Shown: one piece after another, positions 20,437-23,927 of the stretch
How the letters are laid out: each line of letters starts with the position of its first letter
How positions within the stretch are numbered: position 1 is the stretch's first letter
Assembly (NCBI GenBank): GCA_022647765.1
Contig: JALCLH010000001.1
Coordinates: 397,152 to 461,151 of the forward strand
Direction of reading: 5' to 3'
Length of the DNA stretch: 64,000 nucleotides
Source: Acidipropionibacterium sp.
Lineage (GTDB): Bacteria; Actinomycetota; Actinomycetes; Propionibacteriales; Propionibacteriaceae
Position numbers and translations under genes: made by a program
Notes under the pieces: model-generated
The model's input: only the letters and a program-made list of their open reading frames with translations
Databases searched by the model: none
What the model was told of the DNA's origin: nothing

Positions 20437-20478
20437 ATTTCAAGGCTCAATTAAATTCAAGGCTCAACTAGATCTCAC
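20427..20478. repeat. Three imperfect 17-18 bp tandem repeats starting at the SDR stop codon
   Basis: gctcaattagatttcaag / gctcaattaaattcaag / gctcaactagatctcac. Confidence 0.9.
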
Positions 20479-20497
20479 GATGAATGAGGAGAATTCC

Positions 20498-21167
20498 ATG
20501 GCAGATCCGATTCCAGTGCGGATATTCGCGGACAGCGCTGTCCGGGAGGAGGTGGAGCCGTGGCTGGCCACCGGGCTGGTGAGCGGCGTCACCACGAACC
20601 CCACTCTGCTCAAGCGGGCCGGGCTTTCGGTGACCGATATTCCCGAGGTGGCGAAATGGGCCGTCGGCGACGGCGAGCGCGAGGTCTGCTTCCAGCTCTG
20701 GGGAGATACCGAGGAGGAGCAGTACGCCAATGCCATGCGCCTTCACGAGCTCGCCCCGACTGCGCTCATCAAGATCCCGGTGACTCCGGCAGGGGGCGTC
20801 GGTGATCACCCGACTGCACCGGCAGGGGGTGCAGGTGCTTCTCACCGCCGTGTACGCCGCCAAGCAGGCCGCGATCGCATCCGCTCTCGGGGTCCGGTAC
20901 TTCGCCCCCTACTACAACCGCATGCTGGTTGCGGGCCTCGATGGAGCGGCCGAGATCGGCGCGATGGCCGCCGCCATACCGCAGGACGGCCGGGGTCCGT
21001 TGATTCTTGCGGCATCGGTCAAGAGCGGGCGCCAGGTGGTGGAGCTGCTCCAGGTCGGCGTGCGCGCCTTCACGCTTCCGCCGGCGGTGATCGCGGATCT
21101 CTTCAGCGATCCGCTCACCGATCACGCGATCACCGACTTCGAGAGCGACATGCGAGCCGTGCTTTAG
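20498..21167 (+). CDS. Transaldolase family / fructose-6-phosphate aldolase-like protein (apparent +1 frameshift near 20794)
   Basis: VRIFADSAVREEVEPWLATGLVSGVTTNPTLLKRAG, catalytic-Lys motif ALIKIPVT, then GVQVLLTAVYAAKQAAIASALGVRYFAPYYNRM. Confidence 0.83.
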
Positions 21168-21177
21168 GGTGTCCGCC

Positions 21178-22067
21178 ATGGACTCCGGCCTGCTGATCGT
21201 CGACAAGCCCTCGGGATGGACCTCTCATCAGGTGGTGGGACGGGTCGTCGGCTGATGGGCACCCGCAAGGTGGGCCATGCCGGCACCCTCGACCCGATGG
21301 CCACCGGGGTCCTGGTGGTGGGAGTCGGCCGGGCGACCAGGCTGCTGGGCCACCTGGCCCTCCACGACAAGGACTACACCGCCACCATCCGGCTCGGCGT
21401 CAGCACCGTCACCGATGACGCCGAGGGGAGCGTCGTCTCGACCGTGGACGCCGCCGCGCTCACCGACGAGCAGATCGAGACGGCGATGGCCGGGTTGCGC
21501 GGCGAGATCATGCAGGTGCCCACCGCGGTGAGCGCTATCAAGGTCAACGGCCGGCGGTCCTACGCCCGGGTGCGCGCCGGAGAGCAGGTCGAGCTGGCGG
21601 CCCGTCCGGTCACCGTCTCCCGGTTCGACGCCGTGGCCGTGCGCCGGGCCGCGGGGGAGTCCGGCACCCTGGTCGACCTGGACGTCGAGGTCACCTGTTC
21701 CACCGGCACCTATGTTCGCGCCCTGGCACGGGATCTGGGCGCCGCGCTGGGGGTGGGCGGCCATCTCACCGCGCTGAGACGCACCCGGATCGGCCCCTAC
21801 CGGCTGCCCGCCGAGCCGGTCGACCTGTCGGAGGAGGCGCCGCGCCCGGAGCTGATGAGCATGGCGGACGCCGCTCGGCTCAGCTTCCCGGTGGTCGAGC
21901 TGGACGCCGCCCAGGAGGCGGATCTGCGGGTCGGTCGCAGGCTGGAGCTGGTGGTGCCGGCGGATCCGACGGCGATGATCTCCGGCGCGTCGGGGGAGCT
22001 GCTGGCTCTCTACCGACCCGACGCCGAGCGTCCCGGATGGTCGCGCGCGGTCGCGGTGCTGGTTTGA
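21178..22067 (+). CDS. truB: tRNA pseudouridine(55) synthase TruB (apparent -1 frameshift near 21245)
   Basis: MDSGLLIVDKPSGWTSHQVVGRV then RLMGTRKVGHAGTLDPMATGVLVVGVGRATRLLGHL. Confidence 0.93.
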
Positions 22068-22087
22068 TTCGAGGCCGTCGCCTTGGC
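22065..22087. repeat. 23-bp direct repeat, left copy flanking the MntA-HepT cassette
   Basis: tgattcgaggccgtcgccttggc, 20/23 identical to 22952..22974; begins at the truB stop. Confidence 0.82.
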
Positions 22088-22094
22088 CGACATG

Positions 22095-22433
22095 TCACGA
22101 GTCCTTGGTGGACTCGTGCTCCAGTGCGTTCTCTATTCGCGCCATCAGGTTCGGAATGTCGATCATGAGCGTCTGCCGGATAATTGAGGAGTCCACGAGT
22201 AAGTACCCGTGCGCGATCCTGTTACGCATTCCCCACATGAGAGGCCAGTCGTCGCCGAAGATCATGTCTCGCACAGACGGGTCGAGGGTCGCAAGTGCCT
22301 CGATTCCAGCCGACAGCCTCATACAGACAGCATCGATCACCAACTGATCATTGAGATTTCGTTGCGCATAGGTCATCATCAACCGGAAATGGGTGAGCGC
22401 GTCGCGCAGCGTCTCGACGGAGGTACGACTCAT
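22095..22433 (-). CDS. hepT: HepT-like ribonuclease toxin (DUF86)
   Basis: R-X4-H-X-Y motif RNRIAHGY; overlaps upstream nucleotidyltransferase by 4 nt. Confidence 0.88.
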   Translation of the reverse strand: MSRTSVETLRDALTHFRLMMTYAQRNLNDQLVIDAVCMRLSAGIEALATLDPSVRDMIFGDDWPLMWGMRNRIAHGYLLVDSSIIRQTLMIDIPNLMARIENALEHESTKDS

Positions 22434-22900
22434 AGCGGTACGGCCTCTGCGAGGATCCGCTCCCGGAGATCTGGACGCAGTGCCGAGTCGGGGACGAGAT
22501 CGACCTCGGACCCCAGGATCTCCGCGACCCGATTCTCGAGGACTGAAAGCTGCATCAGGCTGAGGGCCGGCCCCATCGTGAACAGGAGGTCGACGTCGGA
22601 GTTCGAGTTCTCCCGGCCGGTGGCCAACGATCCGAAGACACGGACGTCGCTTCCGCCGGCTTCGGCGACGGCGTCCCGAATCTCGCGGGCATGCCGGCGC
22701 AGTCTTCTTGCCAGCGGCGATGAGCCATGGAAATGGAGGAGCCGCGAGACTTCGGGCTGGCTCCGGCCGATCTCTCGCGCGATCTGGGATTGTGACATGC
22801 CGTCGAGGGACGCACGTCGTACCGCGCGTTCCAGCTCCGAGCGGGCATCTGCGACTGCCTTGTCGGTGCGCCGGGCGACTTCGGGCAGGCTTGTAGACAT
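22430..22900 (-). CDS. mntA: MntA-like nucleotidyltransferase antitoxin with N-terminal HTH
   Basis: GSX10DXD motif GSLATGRENSNSDVD; HTH GMSQSQIAREIGRSQPEVSRLL. Confidence 0.87.
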   Translation of the reverse strand: MSTSLPEVARRTDKAVADARSELERAVRRASLDGMSQSQIAREIGRSQPEVSRLLHFHGSSPLARRLRRHAREIRDAVAEAGGSDVRVFGSLATGRENSNSDVDLLFTMGPALSLMQLSVLENRVAEILGSEVDLVPDSALRPDLRERILAEAVPL

Positions 22901-22906
22901 GACCGT

Positions 22907-22923
22907 ATTATAGCAAGTGCTAT
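22907..22923 (-). promoter_or_regulatory. Putative leaderless promoter -10 (TATAAT) and overlapping palindromic operator for mntA-hepT
   Basis: Minus strand ATAGCACTTGCTATAATACGGTCATG; palindrome ATAGCA-N2-TGCTAT at 22910-22923; -10 ends 6 nt before ATG. Confidence 0.6.
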
Positions 22924-22951
22924 GGAGGGATCGGAGGACTTGAGGTCCTGC

Positions 22952-22974
22952 TGATTCGAGGCCTCGGCCTTGGC
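22952..22974. repeat. 23-bp direct repeat, right copy flanking the MntA-HepT cassette
   Basis: tgattcgaggcctcggccttggc; 20/23 match to 22065..22087. Confidence 0.82.
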
Positions 22975-22991
22975 GTGCCTACAATCCCCAC

Positions 22992-23927
22992 GTGTCACCG
23001 ATGCCAAGCCCTACCCAGTCGACGGTCGTCATCGGCAACTTCGACGGCGTCCACCGCGGCCATCGAGCCGTGCTGGAGAAGGCGAGGGCGCTGGACCCCG
23101 AGCTGCCCCTGGTGGTGGTGACCTTCTGGCCGCACCCGGTCTCTGTCCTTACCCCGGGCCGTGAACCTCTCCTGCTCTGTTCTCTGGAACGGCGCATCGA
23201 ACTGCTTGAGCAGGCGGGTGCCAGCCAGGTGAGGGTGGTGCGGTTCACCCGGGAGCTCGCCGGGTGGAGCCCCGAGGCATTCGTGTCGAGGGTGCTCAAT
23301 CCGCTCAACCCGCGTCATGTCGTGGTGGGGCGCAACTTCCGGTTCGGTCATCGGGCCGCCGGCACTCCCGCGAGCCTTGCCGAGATCGGCGCGGGGCGGT
23401 TCGACGTCAGTTCCCTGGACCTGGTCCATGTCGCCGGCAGCTCCACCTCCTCGACGCTGATCCGCGCCGCAGTGGCCGAGGGCAAGATGCGCGCTGCGGC
23501 CCGGCATCTGGGACGCAACTTCGAGGTGCAGGGCGTGGTCGTGATGGGCGACCAGCGCGGCCGTGAACTCGGCTTCCCGACAGCCAACCTGGTGCTTCCC
23601 GCCAACTATGCGGTGCCCGCCGACGGGGTCTACGCCGGATGGCTGATCCCGGGTGGCGGCCCCGAGGCGGGCAGGCGGCTGCCCGCGGCGATCTCGGTGG
23701 GCAGCAACCCGACATTCGACGGCGTCGAGCGCCGTGTGGAGACCTACGTCCTGGACCGCACCGACCTGGACCTCTACGGCGTCGACATCACCGTCGAGTT
23801 CGTCGACCGGCTGCGCGGGCAGGTGAAGTACACCGGCGTCGAACCGCTCATCGCGCAGATGAACCATGATGTCGAGGCCACCCGCACTGTGCTGGATCCC
23901 GGGCAGTCAGAGCTGAATCCCGAATAG
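22992..23927 (+). CDS. ribF: Bifunctional riboflavin kinase/FAD synthetase
   Basis: [30 protein letters not shown] riboflavin kinase motif. Confidence 0.95.

Follow-up and report, generated by a model that had tools for sequence, protein, structure and literature searches.

A divergent MntA-HepT toxin-antitoxin operon inserted between truB and ribF of an Acidipropionibacterium genome, with apparent duplication of the target site

Class I HepT/MntA toxin-antitoxin pairs are defined by an RX4HXY motif in the toxin and a GSX10DXD motif in the antitoxin, and MntA AMPylates a tyrosine of HepT (PMC7641770). In the passages of Makarova et al. 2009 (PMC2701414) cited here, the MNT and HEPN components appear without a DNA-binding partner, an archaeal HEPN-RHH fusion excepted, and a module present or absent at one locus is reported for Deinococcus. 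The operon described here lies between truB and ribF of Acidipropionibacterium sp. (GCA_022647765.1, contig JALCLH010000001.1, positions 397,152-461,151 of the forward strand); this 64,000-nt stretch is referred to as the window, and its relevant features are collected in Table 1. The window genome (G000) is a 3.68 Mb draft, 86.65% complete, in 26 contigs, with frameshifts in truB and in a transaldolase gene. It was compared with four further genomes of the genus (G001, G002, G003 and G004), and the empty-site comparisons below are between congeneric species rather than strains. Like the modules in the passages of Makarova et al. 2009, the operon is patchily distributed and is gained or lost as an operon-sized unit at syntenic loci. 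In contrast to them, it is accompanied by an apparent target duplication, which those passages do not describe.

Table 1. Features of the truB-ribF region, in window positions
Feature	Position	Strand	Remarks
truB	21178..22067	+	TIGR00431 (TruB), 205 bits; frame compared with G002
truB, 5' ORF	21178-21255		in a different frame from the main ORF
truB, main ORF	21216-22067		stop TGA at 22065-22067
Left 23-bp repeat	22065..22087		starts at the truB stop codon; compared with the empty site
hepT	22095..22433	-	predicted HEPN RNase toxin, 112 aa; PF01934, 42.6 bits (cut-off 23.5); RX4HXY motif reads RNRIAHGY
Segment common to window cassette and second copy (G000:C9)	22096..22923		828 bp, 89% DNA identity
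mntA	22430..22900	-	antitoxin, 156 aa; PF01909, 43.3 bits (above cut-off); HTH at about residues 5-58, plus minimal nucleotidyltransferase domain
mntA promoter, -10 box	22907..22912	-	TATAAT; overlaps the operator; 6 nt before ATG
Operator palindrome	22910..22923		ATAGCA-AG-TGCTAT, upstream of mntA; shared motif ATAGCANNTGCTATA
Right 23-bp repeat	22952..22974		likeness continues leftward for about 8 nt that resemble the last truB codons
Putative ribF -10 box	22980..22985	+	TACAAT; 6 nt before GTG; TANAAT in 5/5 congeners
ribF	22992..23927	+	bifunctional riboflavin kinase/FAD synthetase; NF004160, 336 bits; GTG start at 22992

The two genes of the operon overlap by 4 bp and are read on the strand opposite to truB and ribF; the G+C content of hepT is 0.56, compared with 0.69-0.74 for truB and ribF. 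A PF01934 HEPN protein with the RX4HXY motif adjoins a PF01909 MNT protein with the GSX10DXD motif (GSLATGRENSNSDVD, read from the translation), as in the Shewanella oneidensis pair SO_3166/SO_3165 (PMC7641770). The NCBIfam scores, 23 bits for HepT and 40.3 bits for MntA, fall far short of the equivalog cut-offs of 60, which stand outside the published class I definition. These scores mark the two proteins as divergent class members and not as equivalogs, in contrast to the Shewanella pair. Judged by its sequence, the operon is thus a divergent class I MntA-HepT (type VII) toxin-antitoxin system. In the structure predicted for MntA by AlphaFold2 (mean pLDDT 89.7, 28 sequences), a helical N-terminal part with the helix-turn-helix (HTH) precedes a nucleotidyltransferase fold; Foldseek matched this second part to 1wot, to Shewanella MntA (7bxo) and to the MNT antitoxin 8xeo. 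Family membership, motifs, fold and conservation suggest that HepT would act as an RNase toxin and that MntA would AMPylate the RX4HXY tyrosine of HepT.

The N-terminal part sets MntA apart from its Shewanella counterpart, as does a conserved operator lying over the promoter. This part matches a sigma-70 region 4 model only weakly, and the HTH assignment accordingly draws on both sequence and structural model. The motif ATAGCANNTGCTATA was found with at most two mismatches at 35 of 36 loci (the window copy, a second copy in the same genome and relatives from inside and outside the family), compared with 1 of 36 control stretches taken further upstream. The spacing is also conserved: at almost every locus the mntA start codon follows the TATA at a distance of 8 nt. 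At one locus (L076) both arms carry changes and the palindrome is kept. The simplest reading is that the mntA promoter is leaderless and autoregulated by the antitoxin, and we predict both the binding and the transcript start on this basis: the HTH of MntA would bind the palindrome over the -10 box and repress its own operon. In this the operon differs from the modules in the cited passages of Makarova et al. 2009, in that the antitoxin itself bears the DNA-binding domain; we found no description of the HTH-MNT form in the open-access literature. At two loci (L038 and L039, from G018 and G022) mntA lies upstream of groES with its operator conserved and no hepT motif was found downstream; these genes are possibly antitoxins left alone.

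An earlier note on this DNA, made from the letters and their open reading frames, had drawn attention to two 23-mers bounding an 864-bp opposite-strand mntA-hepT segment between truB and ribF. The observation stands up in its coordinates, in the uniqueness of the repeat within the genome and in tests against chance. The 23-mers are identical at 20 of 23 positions and are spaced 887 bp apart; 17 bp separate the right-hand copy from the ribF start. They are their own sole matches in the 3.68-Mb genome, both at zero and at up to three mismatches, which rules out a dispersed repeat. Among random placements of the same geometry within the window, the observed repeat score was reached by 0 of 3864 placements with tight flanks (32 + 67 bp), by 11 of 1453 with wide ±150-bp flanks and by 0 of 3000 in a gapped comparison that included the last truB codons. 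Since loose repeats of 20-40 bp are common in the GC-rich DNA of the window, the significance of the pair rests on the two copies directly abutting the insert on either side. For the same reason no other insert bounded by repeats of 22-24 bp stands out within the window.

The cassette is absent from the truB-ribF gap in three of the four congeners (G002, G003 and G004). In the nearest relative, G002 (ribF 89% identical in amino acids), the spacer from the truB stop to the ribF start is exactly 40 bp long. Without its insert and one of the repeats, the gap in the window is likewise 40 bp long, and it aligns to the G002 spacer without a gap at 29 of 40 positions. The comparison of sibling junctions suggested in the earlier note therefore yielded, at species level, an empty site of the predicted length in which the repeat region occurs once. 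The right-hand repeat also contains TGATTCG, the sequence that G002 has at its truB stop codon and directly after it. The matched spacer length and the presence of truB-end sequence beside ribF make the repeat look like a duplicated truB 3' end. The two copies share 20 of 23 positions with each other, compared with 13 and 15 of 23 with the G002 spacer, and these alignments suggest that the duplication postdates the separation from G002. The insertion of the operon between truB and ribF itself looks real.

Duplication of the target at the truB 3' end would explain why truB kept its stop codon and ribF its promoter. The putative ribF -10 box was left whole, and its retention in the five genomes, at a fixed distance from the GTG, suggests that ribF has a leaderless transcript of its own. 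The claim that both genes had been preserved thus holds for these two features, and fails at the 5' end of truB, where comparison of frames with G002 places a 1-nt deletion near 21245. This deletion is probably an assembly error, and the frameshift has nothing to do with the MntA-HepT insert. A transaldolase-like gene upstream of truB (about 20468-21167) is likewise frameshifted, near 20800. A search against Rfam gave no match between positions 20500 and 24500 of the window.

A second copy of the cassette, on contig C9 of the same genome (mntA at C9:129089-129553), defines the borders of the unit that moved. The homology between the two copies ends at the hepT stop on one side and at the end of the operator on the other, with nothing beyond, and the 23-mer is missing from C9. 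We assign C9 to the genus because a glutamate decarboxylase near the copy is 85% identical to the versions in G002 and G003. At 4-fold degenerate sites the two cassettes are 83% identical, compared with 65% when truB and ribF of G000 are set against those of G002. Taken with the 20/23 identity of the repeats, these values imply that the repeat and the copying are of similar age, and on these sequence comparisons both look young and later than speciation. The second copy sits in a defence island (L045, G000:C9:122000-137000) where type I restriction genes, an IS5-like transposase, a further MNT/HEPN pair and a HipA-like gene were named from their translations.

The fourth congener complicates this picture. 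G001 carries a related operon (66% and 65% amino acid identity) at the same truB-ribF spot and in the same orientation, with 26 bp between the hepT and truB stops, compared with 27 bp in the window. The three cassettes of the genus form a clade (support 95/99). The operon could therefore have stood in the truB-ribF gap of the ancestor of the genus, been inherited by G000 and G001 and been lost from G002, G003 and G004; the C9 copy would then be a later duplicate, and the 23-mers would have arisen or been homogenized later, a deletion through them restoring the empty spacer. Shared site, orientation and spacing agree with this history, as does the monophyly of the cassettes. However, it calls for about three losses, since ribF identities group G000, G002 and G003 apart from G001 and G004. 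Moreover, the cassettes of G000 and G001 are only about 36% identical at 4-fold sites, near saturation, whereas truB and ribF retain 52-59%, and the two 23-mers are too alike for so old an event. Around the G001 cassette, finally, no flanking repeat reached significance (2048 of 3000 random pairs scored equally well), and a hidden repeat there was rejected on this result. We regard an ancestral insertion as unlikely, although it is the most serious of the alternatives, and we favour independent insertions in G000 and G001. Between mntA and ribF, G001 has an 84-bp unit repeated 2.9 times in tandem (L006 1212-1455), and one partial copy of this unit is present in the empty spacer of G004.

Relatives of MntA were found in 41 of 199 genomes of the family, at many unrelated sites: by dnaK, in the tatB-mrp gap, upstream of groES (where hepT has apparently been lost), by a DEAD-box helicase gene and beside TOTE-like genes. 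In several family members (L021-L023 and L027-L029) a large TOTE-like (primase/helicase) gene comes directly after MntA-HepT. This scatter, the operon-only homology of the two G000 copies and the 23-bp duplication at truB-ribF would all suit an operon that is the cargo of a dedicated element, moved in trans by a transposase or integrase that recognizes its ends or an att-like 23-mer. However, neither terminal inverted repeats nor a common end sequence beyond the operon were seen. Flanking repeats above chance were absent from all 26 other copies that were tested, those of C9 and G001 among them, so that such repeats are rejected as a general rule for these cassettes. As the earlier note had remarked, no transposase or integrase is visible: mntA and hepT are the only genes between the repeats, with truB and ribF outside, and no integrase or transposase gene adjoins the element. 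Searches of phage records and viral contigs gave no match. We therefore consider a dedicated mobile cassette very improbable.

The repeats are instead the record of one event at truB-ribF and not a feature of the cassette. The earlier note had called the insert a minimal mobile cassette with a long target duplication or an att-like repeat. Little more than the toxin-antitoxin operon was indeed inserted, and a target duplication fits; the att-like repeat has to be given up, because related cassette loci (G001, the second copy and further relatives) lack it, an outcome that the note itself had named as refuting. A target duplication survives the missing repeats elsewhere, since the duplicated sequence is that of the site itself. 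Plasmid carriage was also considered and rejected, the matches being distant (below 60% identity) and confined to the nucleotidyltransferase part. For the tatB-mrp insertion in G044, comparison with its congeners met a spacer too variable to define a duplication. Elsewhere in the family the truB-ribF gap takes unrelated genes, MarC-like or glycosylase-like, likewise on the opposite strand.

That the 23-mers are a chance likeness of two spacer hairpins is scarcely credible: GC-rich palindromes do occur in the spacers of G000, G002 and G003, and loose repeats are frequent in this DNA, but random placements with tight flanks or in the gapped comparison never reached the observed score, the right-hand copy holds the same truB-stop sequence as G002 and the spacer length fits exactly.

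We conclude that a class I HEPN/MNT operon, predicted to be autoregulated through its HTH, probably entered the truB-ribF spacer once the lineage had separated from the nearest congener. It would have come in as one piece of about 860 bp, with duplication of the target at the truB 3' end. The entering unit would have comprised mntA, hepT and the promoter-operator only, and the event would have duplicated 23 bp, possibly about 31 bp, of target. As to the route, we infer that the operon was likely captured in a single non-homologous event, at a staggered break whose ends were filled in, or else moved by a transposase acting in trans. Long and variable target duplications (8-514 bp) are known from the IS1549 / IS1634 family (PMC2266710), of which IS1549 is actinobacterial, and the long direct repeats at the insertion recall them. 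However, transposase and inverted ends are lacking here and the likeness is one of repeat length only; no element of IS1549/IS1634 type was found at the truB-ribF insert. A broader proposal, that HTH-fused MntA-HepT spreads in actinobacteria as a bare unit of promoter and two genes into housekeeping spacers, through a process new to the literature that would work in trans or without a transposase and be able to leave target duplications of 23-33 bp, is speculative and in our view improbable.

The mobility of HEPN/MNT modules is already known, and the scope of these findings is accordingly modest. What the truB-ribF locus adds is a well-delimited case in which a toxin-antitoxin operon was acquired with nothing else attached: the extent of the moving unit is set by comparison with the copy on C9, and the unoccupied site can be seen in three congeners. 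The conserved pairing of an HTH in the antitoxin with an operator over its promoter, in turn, offers a testable answer to the question of how HEPN/MNT operons might control their own expression.
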